Of a DNA stretch of 39,706 nt, positions 1-36,020 are shown in pieces (the stretch's first letter is position 1; each line of letters begins with the position of its first letter). Source of the stretch: a virus. Where the stretch lies: the IMG/VR virus record IMGVR_UViG_3300046488_000043, positions 1 through 39,706 of that record. One strand, given 5' to 3'. The notes beneath the pieces were generated by a model. That model did not search any database and was not told the origin of the DNA. It was given only the letters and a program-made list of their open reading frames with translations. Made by a program: the position numbers and the translations under genes.

Positions 1-122
1 CATTTGTAATGTTGTCTCATCGACACTATTACTTATCAAAGTGCGCTCAACCCCGCAACTTTTACGAGCCAATACTACGGGCTCCATTGCGGGTTTCAAT
101 GCTGTCTTAAATCCTTCCCATT
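1..122. repeat. 122-bp perfect direct repeat, copy 1
   Basis: Identical base for base to 38706-38827 in the same orientation. Beyond base 122 the two methyltransferase genes differ by many substitutions. The match runs right to the window edge, so the true repeat may be longer. Confidence 0.95.
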
Positions 123-606
123 CTTTGGCAAGTGGTGAGGTGCACTTAGGCGTATCAATGCCCATTGGTGTTGAGTGATCACGATCAATGCCACGAGCCT
201 CACTTAATACATTGTTCAATGAAACCGCACTTGCGGTTTCATTCCTTGTTGTCTCTTCCACGCCTAATCTCTTCTGAATAGCCTTACCAATATCTTGTGC
301 TTTTGGAAAGCCCGATGAATAAAGCCACATTAGTTGATCGCGTATTTCAAAGCCTGCTAACTCAACACTATAAGCAAGTTTGTGATATGTGCGTGCTGCA
401 CTGAATGCAAGTAGATAACCACCGGGTTTCAATACTCGTAAACATTCTTTGTATAGTTCTACTGTGCCAGTATGTGAGTCCCATTCTTTACCTAAAAAGT
501 CGATACCATATGGTGGATCTGTAATAATAGAGTCAAAGTGATTATCGGGGTAAGTTTTGAGAGTGATGAGATTATCACCCAAGTTGAGTTTATATTTTGT
601 ATTCAT
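1..606 (-). CDS. DNA methyltransferase paralogue, beta class (N-terminal part only)
   Basis: The gene runs off the left edge, so only about 202 N-terminal residues are visible. ATG is at 606-604, preceded by an AAAGGA ribosome-binding site. It carries the catalytic DPPYG motif near residue 30, followed by WDSHTG and LRVLKPGGY, as in N6-adenine/N4-cytosine methyltransferases whose motif IV precedes motif I. It should methylate a short DNA motif, perhaps protecting phage DNA. Its N-terminal two-thirds resembles but is clearly diverged from the methyltransferase at 37569-39332. Its last 122 visible bases are identical to 38706-38827, which include the start of the insertion that carries the HNH gene there. 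The AdoMet-binding motif and C-terminus are not visible. Family assignment is firm; sequence specificity is unknown. Confidence 0.85.
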   Translation of the reverse strand, partial: MNTKYKLNLGDNLITLKTYPDNHFDSIITDPPYGIDFLGKEWDSHTGTVELYKECLRVLKPGGYLLAFSAARTYHKLAYSVELAGFEIRDQLMWLYSSGFPKAQDIGKAIQKRLGVEETTRNETASAVSLNNVLSEARGIDRDHSTPMGIDTPKCTSPLAKEWEGFKTALKPAMEPVVLARKSCGVERTLISNSVDETTLQM

Positions 607-631
607 TTGTTCCTTTGTAGCAATACATAAT

Positions 632-639
632 TATTTATC
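632..639 (-). promoter_or_regulatory. T4-late-like promoter box for methyltransferase at 606
   Basis: GATAAATA on the minus strand, about 25 bases before the start codon. It lies just after a terminator, so the methyltransferase appears to have its own start of transcription. Confidence 0.5.
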
Positions 640-640
640 A

Positions 641-677
641 CAAAAAAGTCCCACAAAGCATAGGGCGATGTGGGACT
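641..677 (-). terminator. Rho-independent terminator of a small transcript
   Basis: A perfect 9-bp stem, AGTCCCACA paired with TGTGGGACT (647-655 with 669-677), is followed on the minus strand by six T. No gene lies between it and the promoter at 716-745, so it would end a roughly 70-nt RNA. Confidence 0.8.
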
Positions 678-709
678 AAAAGGTTGTTAGGAAATGAATA
701 AACCTAACA
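641..709 (-). ncRNA. Candidate small RNA A (about 70 nt)
   Basis: The sequence shows a promoter-like pair (740-745 and 716-721), a first stem (TTGTTAGG with CCTAACAA, 684-691 with 703-710) right at the expected transcript start, then a terminator stem with a T-run. There is no open reading frame of note between. A short RNA with two hairpins is the simplest reading; a leader of the downstream methyltransferase ended by attenuation is the alternative. Confidence 0.5.
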
Positions 710-715
710 AACTAT

Positions 716-745
716 AATATACTATATTTAGTATATATTTGTCAA
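716..745 (-). promoter_or_regulatory. Sigma-70-like promoter of small RNA A
   Basis: TTGACA at 745-740, an 18-bp spacer, then TATATT at 721-716 on the minus strand. It is a full match to the bacterial -35 element, unlike the T4-late-like boxes elsewhere, suggesting use by unmodified host polymerase. Confidence 0.55.
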
Positions 746-747
746 CC

Positions 748-783
748 AAAAAAATATCCCACAGCACTTAAACTTATGGGATA
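748..783 (-). terminator. Rho-independent terminator of a second small transcript
   Basis: Stem TATCCCA with TGGGATA (755-761 with 777-783), followed by seven T on the minus strand. It stands alone between a promoter box (801-808) and the sigma-70-like promoter. Confidence 0.75.
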
Positions 784-2705: not shown

Positions 2706-3028
2706 TTACTTCTTATATCCCGTATTGCATTCATAACTTCGAGCCGAAATTCTTTAAGACTATCATAAAGTCTATCATGTCCTGTTTTTTGTTCAGATCT
2801 AAGTAATTCAATATCCTTATCGATACGCTCGCCAAAACGGAAAAATTCCTCCTTATCGAGTTTTTCAGCAGTAGTTTTACTTACTGATGCAATTGAATCT
2901 TTTAATGTTCCTATTTTTTCATTCATTTCTGTCTTATCACTTTTTCTAATGCTAAGGAAAATAGGAACTAAGATTCCTAAAAGTGTTCCTACTGCTATTA
3001 CTGCTGTCCAAATCAACATCCAATCCAT
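2702..3028 (-). CDS. Membrane-anchored coiled-coil protein
   Basis: The product has 108 residues: one N-terminal transmembrane segment (about residues 4-26) followed by a charged helical, coiled-coil-like region (about residues 30-108). It starts at ATG 3028 after AAAAGGGC. It overlaps the holin candidate downstream. Two TATAAATA boxes and a hairpin (AAGTAT with ATACTT) lie upstream. It may assist lysis or be a membrane scaffold. No specific family is claimed. Confidence 0.65.
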   Translation of the reverse strand: MDWMLIWTAVIAVGTLLGILVPIFLSIRKSDKTEMNEKIGTLKDSIASVSKTTAEKLDKEEFFRFGERIDKDIELLRSEQKTGHDRLYDSLKEFRLEVMNAIRDIRSK

Positions 3029-3106
3029 TTTATATGTGCCCTTTTATGTTAGCGTGACCAATACCTGGCACTGTGTTATTAAAATAAAGTATATAATACT
3101 TTCTTA

Positions 3107-4924
3107 TTATGTATATGTATTTATATTTATATCGATTGTTACTGATGGCTCCTGTGTTATATCTGCCTCAATTGCCAATATTTGTGGTTCAACAATAGTA
3201 ACTGATTGAACTTGTGGTTCAACAATAGTAACTGATTGAATTGGATCGCTGATCGAAGTGATTTGTTGTGTAACTTTAACTGCTTGTAATGTTCCATCAC
3301 CTTTATGACCATATGCACTTATGAAGTATTGAATACATTTATGAATCCACCCGCCCTCAAACACATGGGAAAATCCTAACAATAATTCTGTTATAGATAT
3401 TTCCTTAGTTGTGAGTTTATTAACATTACTAATTAACCCGGTAATTACATTAATAGTTCTTGTTCCTGCTTTTGTAATATATACCATTATGTTCGATACA
3501 CCCACATGAATCTTATTTGTTGTTTTAGTGACATTACCTACAACATTGCTTGTAATTGATTTAGATATTGATACAACCTTCTTAACAGATGTGGTAGTTG
3601 CAATAGTTGCAGTAAGTGTTAGGAATTTTATAGCATTAGCTACAAGTGACGCAATTATACCAACTAAAGTATTAAATAATTTAGAGATAGTCTTCTTAAT
3701 ATTACCTGTTACAGTCAGAATATTCAACCACACTTTACTTGTTTGTTTAACTATAATTCCATTGATACCCACAGTGACACTCTTGACTTTAGTATTTGCC
3801 TTAACTATATTGCTTATGATTACTCCGATAACAGATTTAATTAAATTAACTAATTTTGTAACTGATGAAGTAATAGTTTCTGTAACAGATTTAATTAATT
3901 GAACTTGCTTAAATGAAGTTGCTGTCACATTAATATTAACACTCTCCACCTTAATGCTTGTCTTAGTGATGCTATTTGTAATTGTCTCTGCCACAGATTT
4001 AACTAAATTAGTTGTCTTGATAATATTACTGCTTAATATTTCGGTGATGGATTTAACTATCAACATTTGTTTAACAATAACACTATTAATACCCACAGTG
4101 ATACTTTTAACTTTAATATTTGCCTTAGTGATGCTATTTGTAACAGTTTCTGTTATAGTTTTAACTAACTGAGTTTGTTTAATAGTATTTGCGGTAACTC
4201 CCACAGATGCAGTTAATATCAATAGGTATGTTCGTATTGCATTAATAGTTGCTGTTAAAGATGAAGTTACACTAAACACTTTATTAATTTGCTTAATAAC
4301 GATTCCACCGATGCTTAAACTAATATTTTTAATCAATTGTGGTGCTTTTGTGATGCTACCTGTAATAGTTTCACTAACTGATTTAACTAACTTAGATGTT
4401 TTTGTGATGCTACCTGTAATAGTTTCACTAACTGATTTAACTAACTTAGATGTTTTTGTGATGCTACCTGTAACAGTTTCACTAATTGATTTAACTAAAT
4501 TAGATGTTTTAGTAATATTACCCGAAGTTATAGATGATACATTAACTGATTTAATATCATTCTTGTTAAATATCGCACTTATAGAAGATGATACTGATGT
4601 AATTTTCTGCGTAAGTTTAACCAAAGGTGATGTAATAACAACTGTCGTAGATAATAATTTATTAATTGCTCGTTGGATGGTAGATGAGGCAGTAGTTGTA
4701 ACTGCCGGCAGTGCTTTATTATCCCACTTATTAATATTACCTGTAGTTGGTGTAATAGATGTTTTAATTGTTATTGTATTTTTAGCCATTACAGGATTAA
4801 GTGTAATAGATGGTGTCATTGGTTTATTATCGGTTTTAATCACTAAAGGCGATGAAGACACTGACGCAGTTAATGTCATTGTAAATGCATTACCGTTTGC
4901 CTTAAATAGTAATAATAAACTCAT
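3107..4924 (-). CDS. Repeat-rich fibrous virion protein
   Basis: The product has 605 residues, built largely from degenerate 18-residue repeats of the type SKLVKSVSETITGSITKT, with alternating hydrophobic and Thr/Ser positions that suggest a beta-solenoid or fibrous fold. Three consecutive repeats are nearly identical in DNA (54-bp units, 4346-4507). A 10-residue repeat (SVTIVEPQVQ) lies near the C-terminus. There is no cysteine-rich or catalytic motif. The ATG overlaps the stop of the upstream structural gene (ATGA). It is probably a tail-fibre or decoration component at the end of the structural cluster. Open frames on the opposite strand are mirror images of the repeats. Confidence 0.75.
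   Translation of the reverse strand: MSLLLLFKANGNAFTMTLTASVSSSPLVIKTDNKPMTPSITLNPVMAKNTITIKTSITPTTGNINKWDNKALPAVTTTASSTIQRAINKLLSTTVVITSPLVKLTQKITSVSSSISAIFNKNDIKSVNVSSITSGNITKTSNLVKSISETVTGSITKTSKLVKSVSETITGSITKTSKLVKSVSETITGSITKAPQLIKNISLSIGGIVIKQINKVFSVTSSLTATINAIRTYLLILTASVGVTANTIKQTQLVKTITETVTNSITKANIKVKSITVGINSVIVKQMLIVKSITEILSSNIIKTTNLVKSVAETITNSITKTSIKVESVNINVTATSFKQVQLIKSVTETITSSVTKLVNLIKSVIGVIISNIVKANTKVKSVTVGINGIIVKQTSKVWLNILTVTGNIKKTISKLFNTLVGIIASLVANAIKFLTLTATIATTTSVKKVVSISKSITSNVVGNVTKTTNKIHVGVSNIMVYITKAGTRTINVITGLISNVNKLTTKEISITELLLGFSHVFEGGWIHKCIQYFISAYGHKGDGTLQAVKVTQQITSISDPIQSVTIVEPQVQSVTIVEPQILAIEADITQEPSVTIDININTYT
3118..3131 (-). promoter_or_regulatory. Double T4-late-like promoter box
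   Basis: Two overlapping TATAAATA boxes (3131-3124 and 3125-3118) near the 3-prime end of the repeat-protein gene, upstream of the membrane-protein pair. Confidence 0.55.
3181..3240. repeat. 30-bp tandem repeat, two units
   Basis: Units 3181-3210 and 3211-3240 differ at one base. They encode the 10-residue repeat VTIVEPQVQS of the fibrous protein. Confidence 0.95.
4346..4507. repeat. 54-bp tandem repeats, three units
   Basis: Three in-frame 54-bp units (starts 4346, 4400, 4454); the first two are identical and the third differs at a few positions. Each encodes 18 residues. Unit number could change by recombination without a frameshift. Confidence 0.95.
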
Positions 4925-5979
4925 TTACCTACTCCCAATAATGGTAATGTGCAACCAGTCGGGGATGCAGCATCTAAATTAGATGCTGCATTATACCAGA
5001 ACCAATTATTCCATAATTGCACACCTGCTGACGAATTTACTAATCCGTTACTATCATCAGACATAACTGATACCACAGATGTTCTTTGCCCCATTTTACC
5101 ATATTTATGGGCCCATGCGGTATTAAGTTTCATGCCTAAATTATTCTCTTGTGAACTTTTTAGGAATTGTGCATGTGTTATACTGGATGATATTAAATTA
5201 GCAGCAAATTGTGTTCCTGCATGTAGATTATATGTGCTAACTGTGTCACATACTAAAGTTGTGCCTAAGTGTTCAGCCACATGTAGATTATATGTCGATG
5301 CTGTATTACATACTAATGCCGCAACTAATACAGCACCACCTAATTTAAGTTCAAATGCAATACCACCCACATTAGGTAAAGTTCCACCAGCAAAAGTTAC
5401 ATTAGGCGATGTATCATTAGCAAGTATATAATTACTATGCTGTGTTAAAAATCCACCAGATATTGTCCCGTAGTTATTAGATAATGACCAACCTGCCTTA
5501 TCGGTGATTGTGGTAGCACTTGCAAAGGAATCACCACCCCATGCTGCATATGTAACATTGTTTGCCGATGCAAATGCACCTAATGTAATAGATACTGGAC
5601 TGATAACACTATATGCTATTGTAGATGATTGAACAATCGGATTTGCTGGATCTGCACCTGTTATAGTATCGGGCCCACCACAATTAAAATATAATGGACT
5701 AACTGTTGTAGATAATGTTATTGAGGCACTAAAGGATCCACTAAATGAAGGAACAATATAATAACAATAAGTGTAAAAACCGTTACTACTGGGGCCAACA
5801 ACACCGATTTGTGTGGCAGTTTGTCCATTGACTGTAACTGATGATACTAAACTCGTATTAGTAATAAAATTAATAATATAGAGATTATATTTAGTATATG
5901 TAATGGCTTGCGTAGAGAAGCCGGTACCGGCACCGGACCCACCAATCCCACCACCAGTGCCATTAATGGTAAATGCCAT
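4921..5979 (-). CDS. Virion structural protein, Gly-rich N-terminus
   Basis: The product has 352 residues. It begins with a glycine-rich stretch, then a predicted beta-sandwich of about 200 residues (Ser/Thr/Ile/Val-rich). Next come two copies of a STYNLHxxxxxxxxLVxxTxSTYNLH-like segment (around residues 225-255). The C-terminus contains WNNWFWYNAASN, an aromatic motif plausible for contact with a partner or ligand. No enzyme motif is present. It is translationally coupled to the repeat protein downstream and lies five bases after the next upstream gene. It is most likely a tail-tip or fibre-associated protein; the family is not identified. Confidence 0.7.
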   Translation of the reverse strand: MAFTINGTGGGIGGSGAGTGFSTQAITYTKYNLYIINFITNTSLVSSVTVNGQTATQIGVVGPSSNGFYTYCYYIVPSFSGSFSASITLSTTVSPLYFNCGGPDTITGADPANPIVQSSTIAYSVISPVSITLGAFASANNVTYAAWGGDSFASATTITDKAGWSLSNNYGTISGGFLTQHSNYILANDTSPNVTFAGGTLPNVGGIAFELKLGGAVLVAALVCNTASTYNLHVAEHLGTTLVCDTVSTYNLHAGTQFAANLISSSITHAQFLKSSQENNLGMKLNTAWAHKYGKMGQRTSVVSVMSDDSNGLVNSSAGVQLWNNWFWYNAASNLDAASPTGCTLPLLGVGK

Positions 5980-11842: not shown

Positions 11843-14800
11843 TTACCTTAACAAACACTGATAATAAATCTCGCGTGTATCAGCAGTAATAGAACATGGG
11901 GTTGAGCTACTATTAGTAGAAATTACTAATGTGCCAGAAGCAATAATCTGTATTGTATATGCAACACCGGGTGATAAATTTGCTGATAGGAATAACTGGT
12001 TTAGTCCTCCACCACCATTCACATTTACTACATTACTGATATTAACTGTTCCACTATTAACACCACCGTTATTAAATGCCGATGCTGTTGAATTACCCAC
12101 AACTGCACCGGAACCATTGGGCACGATTGCAGTTGAGCCGATTACAGCACTATCGGAATTTCTGATAATAACTAATTGCCAATTTGGTGTGCCCACCACA
12201 TTAAGTGTCGATGTTAATGTAACTGTTCCATTATTAATACCACCATTACTAAATGATGATACTGCAACAGCACCATTTACTCGTGTGTTGGTTGATAAGT
12301 TAGCCGATATAAATGTCGGAAATGGTCCTGTTAATCCTGTTGGATTAGGTGCAGTAACAACTAATGATGCAACTATATACGGTGATATTGTTGTCGATCC
12401 AACACCACTACTACTTGCTAATGTTACACTTGCATTGCTAACAAAAAAGCGTGTATCACTAATGCATCCGTTTGCAAGTTTAATACTATTTACGGTTAAA
12501 TCATTAATCTGTGCATTCGTAACTGCTAAATTCTGAATAGCAGCAGTTGCAATAGTGGCACTACCCATTTGTGCAGCATTTGTAATAACCGCACTACCTG
12601 TTACTAATGATGGTGCACTAATAGTTCCTGGAAATATCTGTGTTGTCCCATCAATGATAATCTTACCATTAGCTGGGCTAATAGATGTTCCACCGGTATA
12701 CACTGCTAATATACGCTTTTGTGTTCCTGTTGCAGTTGTGATAGATGTAGTTGTGTGTAATGTGGTTGGGGCGGTTGTTTCGTCCCAATATACATATAAT
12801 GAACCACTTGTCCATGCTGCATTACCTGCACTTACAGAATATGTTGCTGGTGATCCGGTTCCCCCTGTCTTCTGTGCAGTGCCGGCACTCCAACTAATAC
12901 TATTTGTTGATGGTGTATTAGGTGTAAATGTGAATCCAGGAAATACATAATCATTGAATGTAACAGGTAATGCAGTTGCACCGCTTGTTTGTGTCGAATA
13001 ACTTAATCCTGTATTACCAAAACCATCATAACAAGCAACTTTAACATAGTATGTTGTGCCTGCCACTGCAACTGGATAACTAATCGAACTGTTTGGGCCT
13101 GTGTAAAAACATGTTCCAGTTCCCGCAACCGATCCGCTTGGTGTAAATCCGCTTGTAGTGCTAATATGGTATTCATACCCAACAACATCCACATCTGCAC
13201 TTTGTCTTACTGCATTAATGAATAGATAATCATATCCAACAGTAGTAGTAATGTTAGGTGCACCTGGTGTTGGATTGCTGAATGTCGAATTATCAACAGT
13301 GCCTACTACATTATATACATTTACTGCTGCAACTTCGATGCCCGGTGTTCTAAATGCAGTTGTATTATCGGTTGTATTCTTAAAATAATCATATACATAT
13401 GTTGCAACTAATGAACTATCTGTTCGTTTAAGTGTTGCACCATTATATGCACGCACACGATAATTGCTGAACATATTGCTCTTAGTAAAATCAGCACCTG
13501 CACCATCCACACAAGTCCACACCAATTCCAAATCGCTTTGGTTAAATGTTGTTCCGGTTGTTCCTTTAACATATAATGCAGTTACTGTGGGTGGTGCTGC
13601 TGGTGTAAATGTGTTTGTAGCAGTTGCCGATGGCACACCTAAATTACTATATGCGGTAATCTTAATAATAATACTATTGAGCGGTGTTCCTTGTCCATTA
13701 TCCTTCACATTATTTTGGAATGTATATTGATAGGTAGGCTGATATACCTGTTCACCACGAACCTTAGTTGCACCATTATAAATATCAACCTCATACCACC
13801 CGAATGTTGGGTCAGTTGTAAAATCAGTTGATGCACCATTTAAGCAAGTCCACACAACATCTAAATCTAATGTTGAGAATATTGTGCCGCCACCACGAAC
13901 CTGTAATGCACTAATAGATGCACCACTTAATGCACTCCATGTTCCTGTAACGGCACTGCCGGTCTTATTATAGGTATCTCGTGCATATACATTAACTTTA
14001 ATACTATTTCTGGGGCCGCCATCTCTTACATTATCATCATAGCTATAATCGAAGAACGGATTAAGTGTATAAAATGTCTTAAATAATGCACCACCCGGTA
14101 CGACCAATTCGACTTTATAATCTTGCAATATAAAACCTACAGTATTTGCCGGCGGTGTCCATGATGTGTGTAATGAACTTGTTCCTGTAAAAGTTAAACC
14201 GGTTGGAACACCGATACCGCTACCAGTGCCCGGTGACATGTCTAATGTATAAGAACTATTAAGTGTAGGTGAAGTTACCCCCACTGCATTTATAGCATTG
14301 ATATAGAATGTATAAACGCCACCCAGCGTTGCATCAATCCGTGTCGATGGAATAACACAAGTTTGTGTCATTGTAATACCATTATCTTTCTTCCAACTTA
14401 CTCTATATGAAGTTGCACTCTGATCTGCTGGTGCAGTCCAACTTAGCATCAAATAACGCTTAACAATACTATTAGGGTCAGTCGATGTTTGTGGGGTTAC
14501 AATTAAATTAGTCGGCGAATTAATCGAAATAAGTTTAGGTTGTGCCCAATACACAGGTGATGGTAGGATAACTCCAGTCTCAATGCGTGCATATTTTGTC
14601 GGATCATATTGAACACCACGAATTGTGTAGATAAGTGGTTGAATTTCCACCATCGATATACAACGGAACGGGCGTGGACTAATAGCACCACTGATAACAA
14701 ATGCTGTTCCTGCACCACCCGAAATAGATGCACTAATGCTAATAGTTGCAGTTGTTCCTGCACCAGTTGTGATGGTTCTTGTTTCAATTGAAGAACCATC

Positions 14801-16927
14801 AGATGATATACAATCAATTGTCCATGTGCCAGTTGTAATAGTAACAGGTTCATCTAATACTAAAGTTGTGCCACTTGCACTAATTAATCGGCCTTCCTGT
14901 GTTACCTGTGCATAATCCACATCCATTACATTGAACACTTCGCCCGGTTCAAAGTCTGCATATTGTGGGCCGACCTGACATTCAACAAATTCTGTATTAT
15001 TAATACTTGTATCAACTACCCATCTTGCATCTCTGCGTGCCTGTCCTTCAGTAGTTGCACCATATGATACAATTTCAGAGGTAGTATAACCATAGCGTGT
15101 AATATTTGCACTACTTGCAGTCTCTGTAATTGTCTTTGGTAAGCAATTGTCTGTAATATCTGAATAAGTTGCATTACACGCAGTAAAGCGTGTGCGACCA
15201 TCGGATGCACTATAAGTGAACATACCATTTAACACTTGAGAATTACCTAAAATTCGTGTGTAGGTAGTAGGTCTATCCTGACTTAAACGGATATATCCAT
15301 TATGAATATAAAGCATTGCACGGAATGTAGATGCAATTGCCTGTAATGTCTTCCATGCATCATCGCGAACCATTAATTGTGCATCGAATGTAAATCTATT
15401 TTCGAATGTGCCGGTGCCCTTACCATCATCGACTAACGCATCACAATATACTGCTGCATTATAGAAACTAAATACATCAATCTGGCTTGTATCAATATAA
15501 CTACCCAATCCATATCGACTATTCTTAATAAGCTCTAACAATAACCAAACCGGATTATTAGTCCATACTTTAGTTGATGCAAATGCACCACCCCATGATC
15601 CAGTATATACCTTAGTCGATGCATTATAATTAGATGGAACAGAACAAAGAATCCCACCCCAGTCTGCTGCCATTGTTGGGATTTGGTTATTTGTTGAATC
15701 GGCGCCAACAGTTAATGCATAAAGTGCTCGGTCATTATATGGTAATGCAACTTCCTGAATATTGGTAAAAGATTTTAGTTTAAGTGCATTAATAAGATAA
15801 TTAGATGAACTATCTGCTGTATTTCTAACAACCTTAAATTCCCATCCACCTGTTCCCGGATTTTGTAATCTATATGCAACCTGGAATGGACCACCACTCA
15901 TTTCTGTGATAGTAGGACTCACTATTGCAGCCCATGTTCCGGCAGTTACTCTGGTATACAAAGTGAAGTTTACACTTGTTCCGCTTGCATCACCGGTGCT
16001 TGCATCAATTTGTTGTAATCCTGCATTAAATTCTAATGTAACACGCACAGCATTAATACCACTTGCAACTGTTTCTGTAACAGGTGATACTGTTGTTACT
16101 GCAATATTAATAATCGACTCTGCTTCGACTGCACTAAATCCTGTGATAACAGATTGTGATGGCTGTCCCACTCTTGTATCAACAGTAATATTTGTATAAT
16201 TATAAGATAAATCGCTATTCTGTAATGGTGTATTATCGAAGAAGATGGATTGTGCTGGATGACTTGTATTCCATGGCCCAAATGTTTCGCCTTCACTAAC
16301 TAAATTCAATACACGGGCTATCTGATTAGTTCTTACTGTATTGGGTGCTTGGACAGCAGCACGCGGGCTACTCTTACCGCCACCGCCACCATTGTGAACC
16401 CGAATCTTATCAGCAACATAAGCATGAACATCAGCAACTTCGAGATTGTAAACATAGTCGTATTCTACTCCTGCATCAATGCTTAGTATGGTTGTTTTTT
16501 CGCCATATTCTGTGTATAAAACATCACCGACTGCCAATTCGGATGCCAATGCAAACCCTTTGTCTGCATTAACCGACTGTTTACTTGGTGTTAAAATATA
16601 ATGGTTACCGGTTACATTAAGAATACCTTTTTCATGCGTAATAATAAGTAATGGTGATGTATATCCAACTTCGCCGAATGTGTGAATATATGTTGCTGTA
16701 ACTTGCTTAATGCAAACTTCGCCTGGCATATTTAATTCATCTGGTTCTAATGAACTAATATCGAATGCATATACTTCATCGCCAACAATTAATGTTTCAA
16801 TTGATTTATAACCAGTCGGCGTATTAATCTTAACACCTGCTGGAAAACATCCTCCACCACCTCCACCTTCTCCATAAATAGACTGAAGTGATTCACCAAA
16901 TAGACCGTTTGTATCATTAATATTCAT
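11843..16927 (-). CDS. J-like tail tip/host-specificity protein with Hint domain
   Basis: The product has 1694 residues. Its position after I, and the run of J-type domains beginning ARVLNLVSEGETFGPW near residue 204, identify the lambda J family: the central tail-tip protein that contacts the host receptor. Fibronectin-type segments follow (for example around 870-900), then a C-terminal domain with AAIQNLAVTNAQINDLTVNS. Residues 27-179 are an inserted Hint (intein-like) domain: GGGGGG|CFPAGVKINT at the start, TGNH (106-109, block B), and VHN|GGGGG at the end. The residue after Asn179 is Gly, not Cys, Ser or Thr, so normal intein splicing is not expected. The ATG overlaps the I stop (ATGA). 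The poly-Gly tract on both sides is the usual flexible linker of J proteins. Confidence 0.9.
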   Translation of the reverse strand: MNINDTNGLFGESLQSIYGEGGGGGGCFPAGVKINTPTGYKSIETLIVGDEVYAFDISSLEPDELNMPGEVCIKQVTATYIHTFGEVGYTSPLLIITHEKGILNVTGNHYILTPSKQSVNADKGFALASELAVGDVLYTEYGEKTTILSIDAGVEYDYVYNLEVADVHAYVADKIRVHNGGGGGKSSPRAAVQAPNTVRTNQIARVLNLVSEGETFGPWNTSHPAQSIFFDNTPLQNSDLSYNYTNITVDTRVGQPSQSVITGFSAVEAESIINIAVTTVSPVTETVASGINAVRVTLEFNAGLQQIDASTGDASGTSVNFTLYTRVTAGTWAAIVSPTITEMSGGPFQVAYRLQNPGTGGWEFKVVRNTADSSSNYLINALKLKSFTNIQEVALPYNDRALYALTVGADSTNNQIPTMAADWGGILCSVPSNYNASTKVYTGSWGGAFASTKVWTNNPVWLLLELIKNSRYGLGSYIDTSQIDVFSFYNAAVYCDALVDDGKGTGTFENRFTFDAQLMVRDDAWKTLQAIASTFRAMLYIHNGYIRLSQDRPTTYTRILGNSQVLNGMFTYSASDGRTRFTACNATYSDITDNCLPKTITETASSANITRYGYTTSEIVSYGATTEGQARRDARWVVDTSINNTEFVECQVGPQYADFEPGEVFNVMDVDYAQVTQEGRLISASGTTLVLDEPVTITTGTWTIDCISSDGSSIETRTITTGAGTTATISISASISGGAGTAFVISGAISPRPFRCISMVEIQPLIYTIRGVQYDPTKYARIETGVILPSPVYWAQPKLISINSPTNLIVTPQTSTDPNSIVKRYLMLSWTAPADQSATSYRVSWKKDNGITMTQTCVIPSTRIDATLGGVYTFYINAINAVGVTSPTLNSSYTLDMSPGTGSGIGVPTGLTFTGTSSLHTSWTPPANTVGFILQDYKVELVVPGGALFKTFYTLNPFFDYSYDDNVRDGGPRNSIKVNVYARDTYNKTGSAVTGTWSALSGASISALQVRGGGTIFSTLDLDVVWTCLNGASTDFTTDPTFGWYEVDIYNGATKVRGEQVYQPTYQYTFQNNVKDNGQGTPLNSIIIKITAYSNLGVPSATATNTFTPAAPPTVTALYVKGTTGTTFNQSDLELVWTCVDGAGADFTKSNMFSNYRVRAYNGATLKRTDSSLVATYVYDYFKNTTDNTTAFRTPGIEVAAVNVYNVVGTVDNSTFSNPTPGAPNITTTVGYDYLFINAVRQSADVDVVGYEYHISTTSGFTPSGSVAGTGTCFYTGPNSSISYPVAVAGTTYYVKVACYDGFGNTGLSYSTQTSGATALPVTFNDYVFPGFTFTPNTPSTNSISWSAGTAQKTGGTGSPATYSVSAGNAAWTSGSLYVYWDETTAPTTLHTTTSITTATGTQKRILAVYTGGTSISPANGKIIIDGTTQIFPGTISAPSLVTGSAVITNAAQMGSATIATAAIQNLAVTNAQINDLTVNSIKLANGCISDTRFFVSNASVTLASSSGVGSTTISPYIVASLVVTAPNPTGLTGPFPTFISANLSTNTRVNGAVAVSSFSNGGINNGTVTLTSTLNVVGTPNWQLVIIRNSDSAVIGSTAIVPNGSGAVVGNSTASAFNNGGVNSGTVNISNVVNVNGGGGLNQLFLSANLSPGVAYTIQIIASGTLVISTNSSSTPCSITADTREIYYQCLLR

Positions 16928-23665: not shown

Positions 23666-23690
23666 TATTTAGCATACTCATATATTTAGC
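23666..23690 (-). promoter_or_regulatory. Two promoter boxes upstream of tail tube gene
   Basis: GCTAAATA at 23690-23683 (inside the end of the HNH gene) and again at 23673-23666 on the minus strand. Confidence 0.5.
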
Positions 23691-24031
23691 AAATGTCTAT
23701 TTCTAAATGCCTTCCGTTGATTAAATGCTCGTTGTTTTGCAATTGCTCTTCTAATCCATCTCTTATATTTAATTACTTTGTATCGTCTATGTTCACAATT
23801 AAGTGAATCGATTAGGAAACATTCAACACTAAATATCTGATTTAAGAAGCCCATCTTATATAACAACAAGTGGGCCAAATAATGTTCTCTTATTGTTAAA
23901 CTAACTAAATTATCTAAGTTATCTTCTCCACCACAACTGCGTGGGACTATATGATGCCTTTCGGTATAACCATAAGTATGCCTATATTCAGCACGCTTTA
24001 TAAGTTGATCATATATCTTAGCATAATCCAT
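23678..24031 (-). CDS. HNH homing endonuclease (free-standing)
   Basis: The product has 117 residues. The HNH core is RHHIVPRSCGGEDNLDNLVSL with His26-His27, Asn41 and, after it, H50 in REHYLAHLLL. The C-terminus is basic (RRYKVIKYKRWIRR), as for DNA binding. Its ATG overlaps the stop of the tail terminator gene (TAATG). It is an intruder between two structural genes and probably cuts the matching site in related phages to spread. There is no sign of an intron. Confidence 0.85.
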   Translation of the reverse strand: MDYAKIYDQLIKRAEYRHTYGYTERHHIVPRSCGGEDNLDNLVSLTIREHYLAHLLLYKMGFLNQIFSVECFLIDSLNCEHRRYKVIKYKRWIRRAIAKQRAFNQRKAFRNRHLLNI

Positions 24032-27529: not shown

Positions 27530-28105
27530 TTATTTGACATTGTTGGGTTTTGTATTATATTTTAACCCTGTTAATCCCTTATTCCAGGGAACACTGCCTT
27601 TTCTGGCTGCACTATGTTCGGATGATCGAGGTGGTTTGGCTACACCTTTAAGTTTTGCCGATATTTTAGCATTTGTTTCTGGTAATACTATTTGTAGTTT
27701 ACGAGCCTCTCTTAATAACTCTTTAGTATTCTCTGTGCATTTATGCCCCGGTTTACCTTTGTTAGGTGAAGGTAAACCTTTTCTACTATCGATAAAAGAT
27801 TGTGTATGTTTATATCCACTAATACCTTCGCCGCCAGCGGTTAAGTTGAATAGTGTGCCTTTGCCTAAATCTTCTCTGCCATAAAATGCAATCCAAAACA
27901 CTTCCATATCTAAGGCAGTTTGCTCATCTGCCTGATTAAAAATAATAGGCTGCAACGAAGCCCCGTCTCTGAATCGTTTGCGTAATGTATTACCCAATCG
28001 AGAACGCGATTTATTATGACTCCATGCTCGTTTATCGCATCCTTTACCTACATAAATCGGTGTACCATCTATATCTCTATACAAATAAGTATAATATTGT
28101 GTCAT
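27530..28105 (-). CDS. GIY-YIG homing endonuclease
   Basis: The product has 191 residues from ATG 28105 (an in-frame TTG at 28117 lies upstream). The nuclease core is YYTYLYRDIDGTPIYVGKG (residues about 4-22), the YxY/YVG form of the GIY-YIG signature. The C-terminal half has NUMOD3-type DNA-binding repeats (GLPSPNKGKPGHK, ARKGSVPWNKGLTG). It stands free between the scaffold and coat genes. The promoter box (28154-28147) is followed by a hairpin with a T-run before the start codon, which may keep its expression low. Confidence 0.9.
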   Translation of the reverse strand: MTQYYTYLYRDIDGTPIYVGKGCDKRAWSHNKSRSRLGNTLRKRFRDGASLQPIIFNQADEQTALDMEVFWIAFYGREDLGKGTLFNLTAGGEGISGYKHTQSFIDSRKGLPSPNKGKPGHKCTENTKELLREARKLQIVLPETNAKISAKLKGVAKPPRSSEHSAARKGSVPWNKGLTGLKYNTKPNNVK

Positions 28106-28118
28106 AAGTTTATCCAAT

Positions 28119-30505: not shown

Positions 30506-31801
30506 TTATCTTAATACTGTAATCTTCGCGGCGTGTTTCGTTGGCGCCCAGACATAGGATATAAAATACCCTAATGCATCTGGGTGGTGGTCAATATCGC
30601 CGGCCTTATCGGGCTTGCCATCGATGTAACCCTGTTGTTCTATACATGCAGTTAGTCTGGGGCAAGTAACATCATTGATAAACAATGTTCTGCTGTTTAG
30701 TGAGTTACAAAACTTTAAGTTTACTGCACCTACTCTATCTGCAATAGGAATATGCCCCTTATAGTGGTGCACATTATCATTACCAAATGCACTCTTTAAT
30801 GCCATTACATCGGTCTTAGACATAGTGGTAAAATCACTACGCTGAATATCACCACTCCCATCAACAAAACATTTAATGGCTCTATTGGGGTATCTGCGTT
30901 TAATCTCTCTAATAAGATGTTCTGTATTCTGACAGCCATATATTTCATCTACAATGTGCGGTATTTGGCCAATAATAATGCCAACAGTAGTTGCCATTTT
31001 GCCCACATTAAAGTCGATACCTATGCTTAATGGTGCATTTGGATGTTTAGCAATTGTTTCTGTTGAGCGATTATGCACCCTATCATATGCATAATATACA
31101 TTACCTTCAGCAAAATTAATAAATTCATTACCTATATATGCAGCAAATTGTTTAGCAGTTAATTGTTGTCGCATCATTTCTATATATCCATCATCGATAA
31201 ACGGATTATCATCGACATAAATGTCAATCATCTCTCTGTCAGCACCTGCTTGCTCAACAAAGAATTTATAAGCCCATTGGAACCCTTCTTTAGTTGAAGT
31301 AACACATCCTTGCATCACATTACCCGATGTTAAACGCGATACCATTTTTTGCCATGCTTCTTTACATAGATCATATCCGCTTGTATCAAATTCATCTGCT
31401 ATAAACCATGCTACAGAGAAACCCCTAATACGATTCCAATTTTCACTACTCCTTAGGTAGATAACAACATCGCCTTCTAAGAAATGTAATTCAACTCGTG
31501 CATTGGTTGCCGATGAGCGTATTTCAAACCAGCATTTACCGGGTGTCTTTTTATCTGCCCACCCTAATAGAGATAACACTTCTTCCATAGTGGGTATAAG
31601 AACACCTGCAAGCATAGATGCAGTTGGTTCTAACATAAGTCCATTATATCCGATATTAAGCGAAGCTAAGTGAATTGCTTTTAAGCAAGCAACAAATGTT
31701 TTTCCACTTCTGTATGAACCCATAAGACCTAAGAACCTCACTTTGTCATTAAAGAGAAATTCTATCTGTGGTTTCATTAATTCAATATTAGGTATTGTCA
31801 T
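30506..31801 (-). CDS. Terminase large subunit
   Basis: The product has 431 residues from ATG 31801 (MTIPNIELMKPQ); earlier in-frame starts at 31807 and 31813 overlap the small-subunit gene further. The ATPase half has Walker A GSYRSGKT (28-35) and Walker B VAWFIADEFD (131-140, Asp137-Glu138). The nuclease half starts at SIGIDFNVGKMATTVG and ends with DIDHHPDALGYFISY. It pumps DNA into the prohead and cuts it. All key residues look intact. Confidence 0.92.
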   Translation of the reverse strand: MTIPNIELMKPQIEFLFNDKVRFLGLMGSYRSGKTFVACLKAIHLASLNIGYNGLMLEPTASMLAGVLIPTMEEVLSLLGWADKKTPGKCWFEIRSSATNARVELHFLEGDVVIYLRSSENWNRIRGFSVAWFIADEFDTSGYDLCKEAWQKMVSRLTSGNVMQGCVTSTKEGFQWAYKFFVEQAGADREMIDIYVDDNPFIDDGYIEMMRQQLTAKQFAAYIGNEFINFAEGNVYYAYDRVHNRSTETIAKHPNAPLSIGIDFNVGKMATTVGIIIGQIPHIVDEIYGCQNTEHLIREIKRRYPNRAIKCFVDGSGDIQRSDFTTMSKTDVMALKSAFGNDNVHHYKGHIPIADRVGAVNLKFCNSLNSRTLFINDVTCPRLTACIEQQGYIDGKPDKAGDIDHHPDALGYFISYVWAPTKHAAKITVLR

Positions 31802-32204
31802 CTTCATCCACAATGGGTTTCTTTTTAGATATTACAGAAACAGTGAATCCACTATTACTAACACTAATATCATCGGATGTTAATTCATTGCTAAAATTAG
31901 ATTCTGCTTTAAGCATTCTTGCAAGTCTATCACGCTCTGCTTGCCCATATTTAAGATCTTGTGCCACAGATAAAGATAACTGATAGAATTGGGTAAGTCC
32001 GCGTCTGCGACCTTTCTCCATCGCTGCTGTAATTTCGGGATATTCTAATTTCTTTGTGCTGAATACTGCTGCTGCAATACCTAAACCTGCAGCAATTGTT
32101 TGGTTATTAAAACCCATTGAAGCATCATCTTCGATCTGTTTTAATATTGTTGGTGTGGGTATCCATTTTGGACCACCGCGTGGTTTACTAATTTTTTCTG
32201 ACAT
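31788..32204 (-). CDS. Terminase small subunit
   Basis: The product has 138 residues with a helix-turn-helix-like start (LKQIEDDASMGFNNQTIAAGLGIAAAVF), a basic helix (EKGRRRGLTQFYQ) and an acidic tail. It overlaps the large-subunit gene directly downstream, which together with the fold pattern gives the assignment. It should recognise the packaging site, which has not been located. A TATAAATA box and hairpin precede it. Confidence 0.8.
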   Translation of the reverse strand: MSEKISKPRGGPKWIPTPTILKQIEDDASMGFNNQTIAAGLGIAAAVFSTKKLEYPEITAAMEKGRRRGLTQFYQLSLSVAQDLKYGQAERDRLARMLKAESNFSNELTSDDISVSNSGFTVSVISKKKPIVDEDDNT

Positions 32205-32229
32205 TTGTTAACTCCATAACAGTAATTAA

Positions 32230-32266
32230 CCACTAACTCCATAGTGGCTGCTTTATGTTATTTATA
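32230..32266 (-). promoter_or_regulatory. T4-late-like promoter plus hairpin for terminase genes
   Basis: Perfect TATAAATA (32266-32259), then CCACTA with TAGTGG (32230-32235 with 32242-32247) on the minus strand. A GGAGTTAACAA ribosome-binding region precedes the start at 32204. Confidence 0.6.
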
Positions 32267-32276
32267 CAAATGTGAA

Positions 32277-32573
32277 TTATTGAAGGAACACTCTATCTAA
32301 TTGAAGCAATGTGAATCTATTATTTAAGTTGTGTTTACATAAATTAACTGCTTCATTGACTGGTAAACCACCCACTTGTGCAAATGCAACTGAATTAGTA
32401 ATTTCCTGACATAACAGATCTGACATTAATGTGCATTTCTTCATGGCATTGCCATATACAATTGCATCAAAATCATAACACTTAACAAAGCCACTTACAA
32501 GTGCTTCATAATAAGGTATAATCTTTTCATCGATATATGCTAATTCCTTTAGGGTATAGTTTTTGCGGTTCAT
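32277..32573 (-). CDS. Hypothetical protein upstream of terminase
   Basis: The product has 98 residues from ATG 32573 (MNRKNYTLKELAYIDEK), chosen because an AAGGATTAAT ribosome-binding site precedes it; the open frame reaches further upstream into the neighbouring gene. It is mostly helical, with three cysteines, and no recognised domain. Lying just before the terminase small subunit it could belong to the packaging operon or to the preceding early-type genes. Confidence 0.65.
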   Translation of the reverse strand: MNRKNYTLKELAYIDEKIIPYYEALVSGFVKCYDFDAIVYGNAMKKCTLMSDLLCQEITNSVAFAQVGGLPVNEAVNLCKHNLNNRFTLLQLDRVFLQ

Positions 32574-32598
32574 ATTAATCCTTATATAGTAATATTTA

Positions 32599-33072
32599 TT
32601 AAACTGCTGTATAGTCGAATAGTTGGGAAAATAAGGTTGGTTCCTGATCGAGTGATGCATTTAACATTCTGCGTCTGTCCTGTTCTTTACGCATTTCTCT
32701 ATCACCCATATAGTCCTCAATATCTAATCCATCATCCATGTAGATATTAAATACTTCACTGAATGTTGTTTCACTATTATTTAATAGTTTAACTAACATT
32801 TTATTTATTTTAAGGATCTGGTCTTCAGATAAATCAGCGTGTTTGCCACCATCCTTAAATGTATATGCCCATTTAATAATCTGATATAGTGATTCCATAT
32901 CATTTTTATTCCAGTCTGGTATGCTGGATTGATCGGTGTATATTTTCATTAGGGCTAAATGCACATCTTTAATTGTGCTGCGTTCTGTATCGCTGAATAC
33001 ACAGTAAACAATCCCTTTGCGGATTGTTCCTGTGTGGATACTTGTAAATTCGCGTGTTTTGTATAGTTTCAT
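32599..33072 (-). CDS. Hypothetical 157-aa protein
   Basis: The product has 157 residues, charged, with helical stretches (LSEDQILKINKMLVKLLNN) and an acidic centre (YMDDGLDIEDYMGDREM) followed by a basic patch (RKEQDRRRM). Family not recognised. Its promoter module is the best example of the TATAAATA plus GTAGCA-N3-TGCTAC arrangement, followed by an AAGGGAAA ribosome-binding site. Confidence 0.7.
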   Translation of the reverse strand: MKLYKTREFTSIHTGTIRKGIVYCVFSDTERSTIKDVHLALMKIYTDQSSIPDWNKNDMESLYQIIKWAYTFKDGGKHADLSEDQILKINKMLVKLLNNSETTFSEVFNIYMDDGLDIEDYMGDREMRKEQDRRRMLNASLDQEPTLFSQLFDYTAV

Positions 33073-33093
33073 TGTATTTCCCTTAAGTATAAA

Positions 33094-33119
33094 GTAGCAT
33101 TCTGCTACATGTATTTATA
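33094..33119 (-). promoter_or_regulatory. T4-late-like promoter plus 5-prime hairpin
   Basis: TATAAATA (33119-33112) followed three bases later by GTAGCA-N3-TGCTAC (33108-33094) on the minus strand. Confidence 0.65.
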
Positions 33120-33225
33120 CAAATAAGGGAAAAACTGGGTGATATGGTGTAAAAAGTTAACAAATTTATTACTGTAATAGTAAGTGATATTTGTCTATAC
33201 ATCACAATTAAGGATTACAATTTAC

Positions 33226-33483
33226 TTATAGCACCTCAGTTTTCACAATGTATGTCTTGAATAATAATATATTCTTTGTGTCGGATACTTTAATCAATAA
33301 TGTGTATGTGTCAAATGCAATAATCTGTCCAGCGACTTTTTGTCCATCATATAAATCAAAAACTAAGGTTGCCTTATCATAAACTGCCTGCTTAAAAAAT
33401 TTGGATTGAACATTATTCATATGTGTGGGATTCGTTGTCCCTTTCTTCTGTTCTGTTAATGTAATGTTATTGATAGTGTTCAT
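33226..33483 (-). CDS. Sm-like protein resembling Hfq
   Basis: The product has 85 residues. Residues 26-58 align without a gap to residues 8-40 of E. coli Hfq. Gln26 matches Gln8, Phe29 matches Phe11, Gly47 Gly29, Gly52 Gly34, and Phe57-Asp58 Phe39-Asp40 in the Sm1 motif DGQKVAGQIIAFD. A shorter Sm2-like strand LLFKTYIV (73-80) replaces VYKHAIS, keeping the lysine but not the histidine. The rim arginines of Hfq (RRER) are replaced by VYDK. It is probably a ring-forming RNA-binding protein; the target RNAs are unknown. A promoter plus hairpin module precedes it. I place it by pattern, not by a search. Confidence 0.65.
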   Translation of the reverse strand: MNTINNITLTEQKKGTTNPTHMNNVQSKFFKQAVYDKATLVFDLYDGQKVAGQIIAFDTYTLLIKVSDTKNILLFKTYIVKTEVL

Positions 33484-33499
33484 AATCTTATCCTTTAAG

Positions 33500-33524
33500 T
33501 AGCATATTGCTAATGTTATTTATC
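33500..33524 (-). promoter_or_regulatory. Promoter plus 5-prime hairpin of the Hfq-like gene
   Basis: GATAAATA (33524-33517), then TAGCA-N3-TGCTA (33512-33500) and an AAAGGATAA ribosome-binding site, all on the minus strand. Confidence 0.6.
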
Positions 33525-33536
33525 ACTAAATTGTGT

Positions 33537-33776
33537 TTATGTATTGCTTAAGGCTAATTGTTGAAGATTCAGTGCTGCCAATGCTAATAGTGCATTATCA
33601 CATCCTGCAGTAAATACTTCTGTATATTCTTTATCACCATAATAAACAACTATATGATCTATATTACCACTTTCTGCTAACTCTGTGAGTGTCTGAATAA
33701 ACTCTAATATAAGTGTTTTATGTGCTATTTTCTTTGCATCTGCAATATTTGATAATTTAATAAGTTTTGGTTCCAT
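33537..33776 (-). CDS. Hypothetical 79-aa protein
   Basis: The product has 79 residues from ATG 33776 (MEPKLIKLSNIADAKK); an in-frame GTG at 33785 lies just upstream. Helix-strand pattern with IDHIVVYYGDKEYTEVF in the middle and an Ala/Leu-rich end. It overlaps the upstream gene by about 50 bases. No family is recognised. Confidence 0.6.
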   Translation of the reverse strand: MEPKLIKLSNIADAKKIAHKTLILEFIQTLTELAESGNIDHIVVYYGDKEYTEVFTAGCDNALLALAALNLQQLALSNT

Positions 33777-34006
33777 ATAGTCCACTTTATTTGTGATTTG
33801 GCCTTATATGCTGCTGCGGGCCAAAAATGTTTCTTTAATATAATAGCAATCCCAATTAATTCACTATCATCCAATATTTCAATTTCTAAATCAGATAGAC
33901 GATCATATTGCCCGATGAATATATCTGCTAATTCTCTATCAACTATATCGATAGGGGATCGCATTAATGCTTCATATAAATCATCTAAGTAACCCCAATC
34001 ATTCAT
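33725..34006 (-). CDS. Hypothetical 93-aa protein
   Basis: The product has 93 residues. The acidic N-terminal half (MNDWGYLDDLYEALMRSP, DLEIEILDDSEL) precedes a more basic C-terminal half. Its start overlaps the stop of the Rz1-like gene (ATGA), so it is coupled to the lysis genes. Family and role unknown. Confidence 0.6.
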   Translation of the reverse strand: MNDWGYLDDLYEALMRSPIDIVDRELADIFIGQYDRLSDLEIEILDDSELIGIAIILKKHFWPAAAYKAKSQIKWTIWNQNLLNYQILQMQRK

Positions 34007-34287
34007 TTACAACTTGTCAATGCCGCAAGTAATTCTATTTCATATGCTGTATGAAGTTCAATATCTGCAAGTATTGCCTTTGTTTTTACAAATATATTAT
34101 CACTCTGTTTAAGATGTGGAATATTGTAAGTCGGTTGTGTGGGTGTCTCTGTTTTACATGCAATTGCAATAGGAACTTCACTCCGCTGTATTTGTGTTGG
34201 TTCTGCTGGGACAGATGCACATCCTGCTATGGTTGCAAGTATAAGTGCATCCATTGATAACATTCCACCATATTTAATGTGCTTCAT
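34003..34287 (-). CDS. Outer-membrane spanin lipoprotein, Rz1-like
   Basis: The product has 94 residues from ATG 34287, with AAAGGA correctly placed upstream; the frame also opens at a TTG further up. A signal peptide ends in the lipobox LATIAGC, so Cys23 would be lipid-modified and placed in the outer membrane. The mature part (ASVPAEPTQIQRSEVPIAIA, ADIELHTAYEIELLAALTSC) resembles Rz1-like proteins. With the Rz-like protein at 34664-35041 it would join inner and outer membranes and complete lysis. Rz1 is often nested within Rz; here they are separate with two small genes between. Confidence 0.75.
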   Translation of the reverse strand: MKHIKYGGMLSMDALILATIAGCASVPAEPTQIQRSEVPIAIACKTETPTQPTYNIPHLKQSDNIFVKTKAILADIELHTAYEIELLAALTSCK

Positions 34288-34510
34288 TAGAGCGTTCCTT
34301 TGCAAGTAATATCAGTAATTGCGGAACCATATCAGCAAGTTGCTCAGTTGAATTATATTTCTTTAAGCAATCAATTGCAAGTTCTTGCCATTCATTCTTT
34401 TCAATGTGAAGTTTCTTTAATTCAATCTGTAAATTTAACATATCTACATTGTATTTGTTAATGATTGTATCAACATATTCCTGTGAATACTTTCTCTTAT
34501 TTGCTGCCAT
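34274..34510 (-). CDS. Small helical protein in lysis cluster
   Basis: The product has 78 residues from ATG 34510 (MAANKRKYSQEYVD), preceded by AAAGGAGC. The frame is open further upstream but lacks a ribosome-binding site there. The basic start and coiled-coil-like middle (MLNLQIELKKLHIEKNEWQEL) have no recognised family. It overlaps both neighbours. Confidence 0.65.
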   Translation of the reverse strand: MAANKRKYSQEYVDTIINKYNVDMLNLQIELKKLHIEKNEWQELAIDCLKKYNSTEQLADMVPQLLILLAKERSNEAH

Positions 34511-34667
34511 TTTCGTGCTCCTTTCTAAACTTTGTTTCTTCATAAGTTTCTATTTCGTTTACAAGCGGGGTATTAAATCCCAATACCTTAGCCATCATTG
34601 CTGCGAATGGTTGTTTAACATTACCTGCTAATACATCTATTAGATAATCATCTTTACTATAGATCAT
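34497..34667 (-). CDS. Small 56-aa protein overlapping Rz-like gene
   Basis: The product has 56 residues beginning MIYSKDDYLIDVLAGNVKQP and ending HENGSK. Its ATG overlaps the stop codon of the Rz-like gene (ATGA), which supports translation by coupling, and its end overlaps the next gene start. It is mixed helical with a conserved-looking FAAMMAKVLGFNTPL segment. Function is unknown. Confidence 0.6.
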   Translation of the reverse strand: MIYSKDDYLIDVLAGNVKQPFAAMMAKVLGFNTPLVNEIETYEETKFRKEHENGSK

Positions 34668-35041
34668 TGTGTAATAACCTTATTAATAAGTCGATTTGCT
34701 GATTCACACATATTAGTATTTTGTGGGGTAGCACTTAGTATTGTTTGTGCATTACTGGTATGTAAATTCGCCGAATTTCGTGCAATTTTAAGGTCTACTT
34801 CTGCTTTCTGTTCCCTTACTACTGCTGCATTTTTTAATGTATCAATTGCAGTGTTCTGTTCAGTAATTGCTGATTGAAGTTTAACAACATTATCCTTTTC
34901 GGTTTGCACATCTTTATGTAGTTGAATTGCTTCGGATTTAAGAGTATTGTTTTGGTTATACAAATGCCCTACATAAGCACAAGCTAATGCAATTACTATA
35001 TACACCCAATAGTTCTTTAAGAATGTTAAGAAGATTAGCAT
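34664..35041 (-). CDS. Inner-membrane spanin, Rz-like
   Basis: The product has 125 residues from ATG 35041, with AAAGGATTAAT before it; the frame is open further upstream. A single N-terminal transmembrane helix (about residues 8-26, NYWVYIVIALACAYVGHLY) precedes a long coiled-coil region (NNTLKSEAIQLHKDVQTEKD and beyond), the topology of Rz. The C-terminal end (NMCESANRLINKV) should contact the lipoprotein partner across the periplasm. Confidence 0.75.
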   Translation of the reverse strand: MLIFLTFLKNYWVYIVIALACAYVGHLYNQNNTLKSEAIQLHKDVQTEKDNVVKLQSAITEQNTAIDTLKNAAVVREQKAEVDLKIARNSANLHTSNAQTILSATPQNTNMCESANRLINKVITQ

Positions 35042-35042
35042 A

Positions 35043-35219
35043 TTAATCCTTTGTAGATGTTGGTGTGATTTTAATTTCTGCAAATGCTTTTATTAATGCA
35101 CGGTATTTAATAGCATCACATGAATCAACATAGATCTTTGCAATAACTAATGCAATCCAAAGAATACATGCTGTTATAAGAAGAACTGTGAATGCTGTAG
35201 AAATGATTGTTGCGAACAT
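35043..35219 (-). CDS. 58-aa single-span membrane protein, holin candidate
   Basis: The product has 58 residues: MFATIISTAFTVLLITACIL begins a hydrophobic segment of about 27 residues, followed by a charged tail ending TPTSTKD. It is too short for most tracks but has an AAAGGATAAAAATT ribosome-binding site and a full promoter plus hairpin module. Position next to spanin and lysozyme makes it a holin or antiholin candidate; the two-span protein at 2472-2705 is the other. Confidence 0.65.
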   Translation of the reverse strand: MFATIISTAFTVLLITACILWIALVIAKIYVDSCDAIKYRALIKAFAEIKITPTSTKD

Positions 35220-35244
35220 AATTTTTATCCTTTAATAAGTTTAA

Positions 35245-35272
35245 GTAGCATCTTGCTACAACTATATTTATA
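35245..35272 (-). promoter_or_regulatory. T4-late-like promoter plus 5-prime hairpin of lysis cluster
   Basis: TATAAATA (35272-35265), then GTAGCA-N3-TGCTAC (35259-35245) on the minus strand. It would drive the holin candidate, spanins and small genes. Confidence 0.65.
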
Positions 35273-35317
35273 TGAATCTTACATAAGTATATGGATATAA
35301 CCTAAAAAGGATCACTT

Positions 35318-35758: not shown

Positions 35759-35765
35759 CCCTTGT

Positions 35766-35957
35766 CTAACCCTTGTATAGTGCATATTCAGAGAATGTCC
35801 ATCCGTGCTTATATAATATTTTTCGTAATACATTCGGATTTAATTCAGATCGTTTAGAGATAGATGATTTATAAGCCATTATAGCATTATATACTTCTTC
35901 TCGTGGTGCACGAGTAAGGTATCTAAACAGTTTATCTTGTTCATCTTCTTCTATCAT
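35766..35957 (-). CDS. Hypothetical 63-aa protein
   Basis: The product has 63 residues, MIEEDEQDKLFRYLTRAPRE, then a helical middle and KILYKHGWTFSEYALYKG at the end. It resembles a small helix-turn-helix-like fold without a sure family. Its start is inside one copy of the dispersed repeat and its stop nearly meets that of the convergent lysozyme gene. Confidence 0.55.
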   Translation of the reverse strand: MIEEDEQDKLFRYLTRAPREEVYNAIMAYKSSISKRSELNPNVLRKILYKHGWTFSEYALYKG

Positions 35958-36020
35958 TTTAATTGTAATTTGGACTTGTTATATACATGGGTACTGTTAC
36001 TACTGCACCATAATATTATA
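35958..36020. repeat. Dispersed repeat, copy 2
   Basis: 36 bases identical to 18816-18851, plus 19 bases matching 18861-18879 with one mismatch. It spans the stop of the polymerase-like gene and ends at the start of the 63-aa gene. A further 14-base piece (GTTATATACATGGG) recurs at 36108-36121. Confidence 0.9.

Follow-up and report, generated by a model that had tools for sequence, protein, structure and literature searches.

Two DNA methyltransferase genes of the viral record IMGVR_UViG_3300046488_000043 share a perfect repeat of 122 bp but differ at many positions elsewhere in their N-terminal halves, which raises the question of how this short identity arose. The window analyzed here is the whole record (39,706 bases, classed as linear), and its left edge is a contig end. 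Nearly all of the large genes read leftward. Methyltransferase 1 lies in the right-hand part of the record, and the start of methyltransferase 2 lies at the left end (1–606, minus strand). The latter is represented by its N-terminal 202 codons as a 3′-open ORF truncated by the contig end, and it was recognized by both Pfam (N6_N4_Mtase, E 5.8e-6) and PHROG (DNA methyltransferase, E 5.5e-28).

We confirmed that positions 1–122 match 38706–38827 exactly, as the initial annotation had claimed. A 122-base identical run would be expected by chance with a probability of only ~7e-14 at 78% identity. The abrupt change in identity was likewise borne out, and it falls where a mobile HNH element has inserted: ungapped 20-bp blocks counted from the edge gave 20/20 in six blocks, followed by 14, 10, 7 and 4 of 20. 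Beyond the tract, the N-terminal halves of the two methyltransferases show about 71–78% DNA identity (gapped identity 0.71 over 312 columns, taken from the 330 bp that precede the insertion point), and 119 of 157 residues before the tract are identical in the two proteins. Judged by homologous insertions, the 122 bp consist of two parts. The first 90 bp of the window (1–90, minus strand, equivalent to 38706–38795) are the 5′ end of the element within methyltransferase 2, comprising the downstream-flank copy and the leader. The remaining 32 bp (91–122, minus strand) are upstream host-gene flank, identical to 38796–38827 (minus strand) in methyltransferase 1, and form a putative co-conversion tract. 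Identity between the two genes is thus 90/90 in the element, 32/33 in the near flank and 71% across 330 bp. With 90 of its 122 bp belonging to the element itself, the repeat shows that at least the 5′ end of this element is present in the left-edge gene. Recent homing that co-converted a short flank is thereby supported.

To define the element, we analyzed methyltransferase 1 (37569–39332, minus strand). The element (38235–38795, minus strand) follows ...KTALKP and comprises 561 bp, equal to 187 codons of the methyltransferase frame, flanked by two LKPAxEPxVxARK copies that match at 27 of 45 bases. Its 5′ end thus resembles the residues that follow the site. The initial annotation had spoken of an HNH insertion here. 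The insert does not interrupt this gene: the ORF stays open from 39332 to 37569 and encodes 587 aa without a stop, the element being out of frame and ORF-preserving. The 187 extra codons of the methyltransferase frame form an S/T-rich stretch. The structural model of the whole protein had a mean pLDDT of 56.3, with block means of 28–55 in the insert region (residues 181–370). It matched beta-class N6-adenine methyltransferases such as CcrM and M.BceJIV; the fold search was weak because the model is poor, and low ranks were ignored. Across the HNH stretch, the third frame of the same strand and all three antisense frames contain stops. With the HNH protein held fixed, 237 of 20000 codon permutations left the methyltransferase frame open, as did 0 of 20000 draws based on the codon usage of the phage; an open methyltransferase frame by chance is therefore unlikely. 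When the insert alone was translated in the methyltransferase frame and searched by tblastn, no match was returned, which fits a constraint acting mainly through the other, HNH frame.

The nested gene (38239–38697, minus strand, 152 aa) occupies the +2 frame of methyltransferase 1 and encodes an HNH endonuclease, as indicated by Pfam HNH_3 (35.3 bits against a gathering cut-off of 24.8) and further by PHROG HNH (E 9e-23). Its AlphaFold model reached a mean pLDDT of 84.9. A sequence search for PDB chains found none. The best fold match was I-HmuI (PDB 1u3e; Foldseek E 0.016; VIA-align Z 7.3, rmsd 3.4 over 71 residues), a match that is supportive only, since Z below 8 can reflect a common arrangement. 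I-HmuI is an intron-encoded HNH homing endonuclease; it shares the HNH fold with the window protein, whereas no intron was found around the latter. In Aeromonas phage Aeh1, the HNH gene mobE is inserted in a conserved phage gene, nrdA, and splits it, whereas the methyltransferase frame in the window stays open. Pairs of Zn-binding cysteines surround the HNH core: Cys 4, 7, 19 and 23 together with Cys 112, 115, 135 and 139 are invariant in five copies, and the C-terminal four are invariant in 37 copies, some of which are cut short at the N-terminus.

This arrangement has a published counterpart. Arsenault, Gosselin and Gogarten (2025, PMC11855218) describe the ShiLan domain, whose predecessor appears in Gosselin et al. 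2023 (PMC9957025), as an out-of-frame HNH in unbroken methyltransferase ORFs of mycobacteriophages, with an insertion 5′ end that resembles the residues after the insertion site. Only these two papers were found for the ShiLan domain name in the open literature without preprints. According to these descriptions, the ShiLan domain shares with the window element a third-frame HNH in an unbroken phage methyltransferase ORF, a site after GTALKP, a 5′ end similar to the 11 residues that follow this site, and Zn-binding Cys pairs. It also shares the absence of intron or intein signs and the spread between diverged methyltransferases. The two differ in element size (561 bp in the window versus about 202 codons as reported for ShiLan), and the window HNH shows 34–37% identity to the mycobacteriophage copies. 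They also differ in the start, which is an ATG with GGAGG in the window and a leaderless GTG in the proposal of PMC11855218. Another counterpart is gene 59 of Cylindrospermopsis phage Cr-LKS3, which likewise contains a nested HNH in the same frame, at the same site and with GGAGG; its HNH is 41% identical to that of the window over 99% of the latter. The phage and the methyltransferase are different ones, and the gene is annotated only as a DNA methylase. The window element is thus of the known ShiLan type in a new setting, with a much wider range and a testable correction to its translation.

Resemblance between the 5′ end of the element and its downstream flank, which PMC11855218 discusses for group I introns, could point to an intein or to an intron of group I or II. 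This is very improbable and we rejected it. Rfam, including its intron models, gave no match at E up to 1 across 37400–39706, and no Hint or intein family was found in the 587-aa methyltransferase 1 (Pfam, E 0.01). Moreover, the insert is open in frame and contains a whole number of codons.

To determine how far such elements extend, we searched 50,697 phage records with the window HNH by tblastn and obtained 16 records with at least 80% coverage. They comprise Cr-LKS3 and mycobacteriophages, and all 16 matches lie under genes annotated as methyltransferase, methylase or (in one case) hypothetical protein. In each of the 7 records inspected, the ORF is unbroken and the HNH occupies its +2 frame. 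Such endonucleases are hidden under the methyltransferase annotations of phage genomes. Alignment scans of viral_contigs (80 loci kept of 273 relatives) and genome_contigs (15 loci) yielded 95 fetched loci; plasmids gave four weak HNH matches, none with 80% coverage. A second frame is open across the HNH match in 51 of the 95, and in 48 of the 95 the HNH is nested in an unbroken methyltransferase ORF (45 by phmmer, L073 by Pfam, L081 and L086 by PHROGs). The remaining three are short ORFs (L066 and L083, without a Pfam match, and L107). The +2 frame found in the window recurs in 44 of the 48 nested loci. The out-of-frame HNH element is thus widespread beyond mycobacteriophages: a cyanophage has it, and so do dozens of viral contigs from the environment.

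Open-frame scoring covered 41 of the 44 nested loci and 49 of the 51 others, rows with a stop or N codon in the match being skipped. The methyltransferase frame was open in 41/41 nested loci against 12.6 expected, and the same offset was open in 2/49 of the others against 2.75 expected. Since the nested set was chosen by the open frame itself, the only independent check is the broken-frame scan, which found no methyltransferase pieces around a broken frame in the other 51 loci with a profile of one methyltransferase type. In an HNH tree built by a quick method from all 95 loci, the window, Cr-LKS3 and Filuzino, the nested +2 rows formed one group (support 88) with one long-branch outsider (L069). 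By eye, two versions of LKPAxExxxxAxKP bracket the element in the methyltransferase frame in 44 of 46 rows, 37 of which the pattern caught; the exceptions are L048, cut by a contig end, and L071, in which this arrangement is not seen. The four loci with the HNH in the +1 frame (L070, L073, L081 and L086; HNH near 3001–3390) involve other methyltransferase types or another site and fall outside the +2 group of the tree. They possibly represent a second origin of the same strategy, and the Pacc40 case described in PMC11855218 may be a parallel to them.

As a separate observation, some of the same methyltransferases carry further in-frame insertions (L006, 1413–3737; L007, 1660–4704; L010, 684–3566), which by eye and as published are a LAGLIDADG stretch (Mantra) or an intein (Starcevich, ShiLan).

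Mobility of the family was assessed by comparing 203 pairs of nested loci that had a pattern-found insertion start and a blastn piece of >300 bp in the insert. Among Cr-LKS3, L025, L026, L029, L031 and L052, the element is 90–95% identical in 15 of 15 pairs. In the same pairs, identity is 73–97% in the last 33 bp before the element, 52–82% in the 330 bp before it and 51–65% in the methyltransferase after it. Near-identical elements thus sit between diverged flanks in unrelated phages. The higher identity of the element could partly reflect dual-frame constraint, yet the gap between 90–95% and 51–65% is large. A highly similar element with a short piece of similar flank fits what homing with short co-conversion would leave. 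These comparisons extend the published evidence of ShiLan-type mobility beyond mycobacteriophages. Movement between diverged methyltransferases is apparent for the family, and for the window copies only through the 122-bp tract.

Taken together, these results make it rather likely that methyltransferase 1 contains a ShiLan-type homing element and that a common source supplied it to the left-edge gene not long ago; recent receipt is suggested by the 90 bp of element and the 32 bp of identical flank in that gene. In the mechanism we propose, the 561-bp element would have entered after ...KTALKP with the methyltransferase frame kept free of stops. The HNH endonuclease would cut uninserted methyltransferase genes at the conserved stretch coding for LKPAxEPIVxARKP, and repair from an inserted copy would install the element with a short piece of flank. 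The first 90 bp of the left-edge gene and its 32-bp flank would then come from the same source, the direction and place of the transfer being putative. The initial annotation had proposed that the second gene also carries the insert and that the repeat reflects co-conversion beside a homing endonuclease. For the insert, the first 90 of its 561 bp are seen in the left-edge gene. For the co-conversion, the 32 bp of identical flank are in agreement, but most of the tract (90 bp) is the element and not host DNA.

Ordinary gene conversion between the paralogues, with no nuclease involved, would also produce an identical tract, and genes that are 71–78% identical are similar enough for recombination. 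We consider this improbable, given that the tract coincides with the insertion site and begins only 32 bp upstream of it, and that the same profile occurs between unrelated phages with the element as the shared part. An assembly-graph or strain effect deserves more weight, and we regard it as a serious possibility, somewhat short of an even chance; the initial annotation had itself offered an assembly break as an alternative. In this case, a single methyltransferase locus would exist as two alleles of the N-terminal part, or two phages would co-occur. The contig would run from allele 1 through the shared element into allele 2 and stop on re-entering the shared element. Positions 1–38705 would thereby form a closed circle of 38,705 bp containing a single methyltransferase, while 38828–39706 would be a branch from another strain. 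In line with this, the contig ends within the repeat, joining 1 to 38705 preserves the methyltransferase frame, and the repeat length of 122 equals k−1 for k = 123, a value used in some public assembly pipelines. A second full-length copy was found in 0 of 30 related records (second matches were below 100 residues), an absence to be read with the caveat that such repeats would also break assemblies, and each of the 16 annotated phage records (at least 80% coverage) has one place for the element. On the other side, no replication or regulation gene was recognized among the ORFs scanned with PHROGs, so that the record may lack an early region. By capsid protein, the 15 nearest records listed are 20–56 kb long, and HK639, 5 LV-2017 and DMCA among them have 47–52 kb, so that a complete genome of 38.7 kb is not clearly favored, although their capsid identity is only 43–46%. 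The missing gene classes and these longer relatives together indicate that the record may be incomplete.

Whether the left-edge methyltransferase is a paralogue in the same genome is, in our estimate, about an even question. A clear second methyltransferase N-terminus occurs in few of 24 records, for example G022, where it is without the element. If real, the two-copy case would be a transfer between paralogues caught shortly after the event. A wider claim appears doubtful: that an overprinted, frame-neutral homing endonuclease jumped within one genome between two paralogues, and that an open host frame, like introns and inteins, offers such an endonuclease a harmless place in a coding gene, as a third solution. 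This strategy would have two or more origins (+2 in 44/95; +1 in 4/95, in other methyltransferases or at another site), in DNA-methyltransferase genes in every locus examined. An exact 30-mer of the shared tract returned 0 matches, not even the window's own record, and is uninformative on sister contigs. Megablast of 30506–38705 against the phage collection gave no match, and peptide-pattern scans of viral_contigs with methyltransferase 1 and with the large terminase found no close kin of the phage. A terminal direct repeat of 20–1499 bp was not found in the record.

How the hidden endonuclease is translated is an open question of the 2025 ShiLan description; the passages of PMC11855218 on initiation report no detectable RBS and propose leaderless initiation at a GTG 18 bp in. 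In the window, a Shine-Dalgarno-like GGAGG (38702–38706, minus strand) lies 4 nt before the HNH ATG, and its first G is the last base of the 122-bp repeat. We counted such motifs in 36 of the 46 nested copies in hand, leaving out near-duplicates and unclear starts. GGAG, GAGG or AGGA precedes the HNH start in 26 of the 36 (controls: 53/900 in the leader and 506/5248 inside the HNH), and GGAGG or AGGAG in 18 (controls: 6/900 and 83/5248, respectively); near-copies remain among the 36, and the counts are not independent. A Shine-Dalgarno 4-mer is absent from 10 of the 36 starts. GGAGG before the HNH start is common to three distant lineages, namely the window, Cr-LKS3 and the mycobacteriophages; in the last, it precedes a later GTG, giving proteins of 169–170 aa. 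This later start with GGAGG would be a simpler reading than the leaderless GTG. The HNH is probably translated from its own internal ribosome-binding site, as these motifs suggest; with a Shine-Dalgarno-like site ahead of most HNH starts, internal initiation can be tested directly.

Several features around the methyltransferases and elsewhere in the window were observed separately. A perfect hairpin (218–243) lies in the coding part of methyltransferase 2, and methyltransferase 1 has none; it includes a 9-mer, which we take to be the Pasteurellaceae uptake-sequence core, present once in the window against 0.19 expected. The adjoining stretch 607–760 (minus strand) contains a promoter-like TTGACA-18-TATATT (11/12). 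By eye, a GTCCCACA...TGTGGGAC hairpin with a T run lies 3′ of that promoter, just before methyltransferase 2, and could be an attenuator or a small RNA; Rfam gave no match in this stretch. A 130-aa ORF upstream of methyltransferase 1 proved not to be a copy of the small terminase, and a 468-aa ORF (36000–37406) had no phage relative in the search. Two more endonuclease-like ORFs lie amid the head genes (23678–24031 and 27530–28117, both minus strand), one of them HNH by Pfam and the other GIY-YIG-looking by eye without a Pfam match. A 605-aa T/S/K-rich repetitive ORF (3107–4924, minus strand) contains 54-bp repeats, and a 223-aa ORF (4311–4982, plus strand) is open opposite to it. Finally, the tail-fibre J-like protein (11843–16927, minus strand; PHROG central tail fiber J) has an N-terminal part that by eye resembles a Hint/intein-type domain (CFPAGVKINTP...VHNG).
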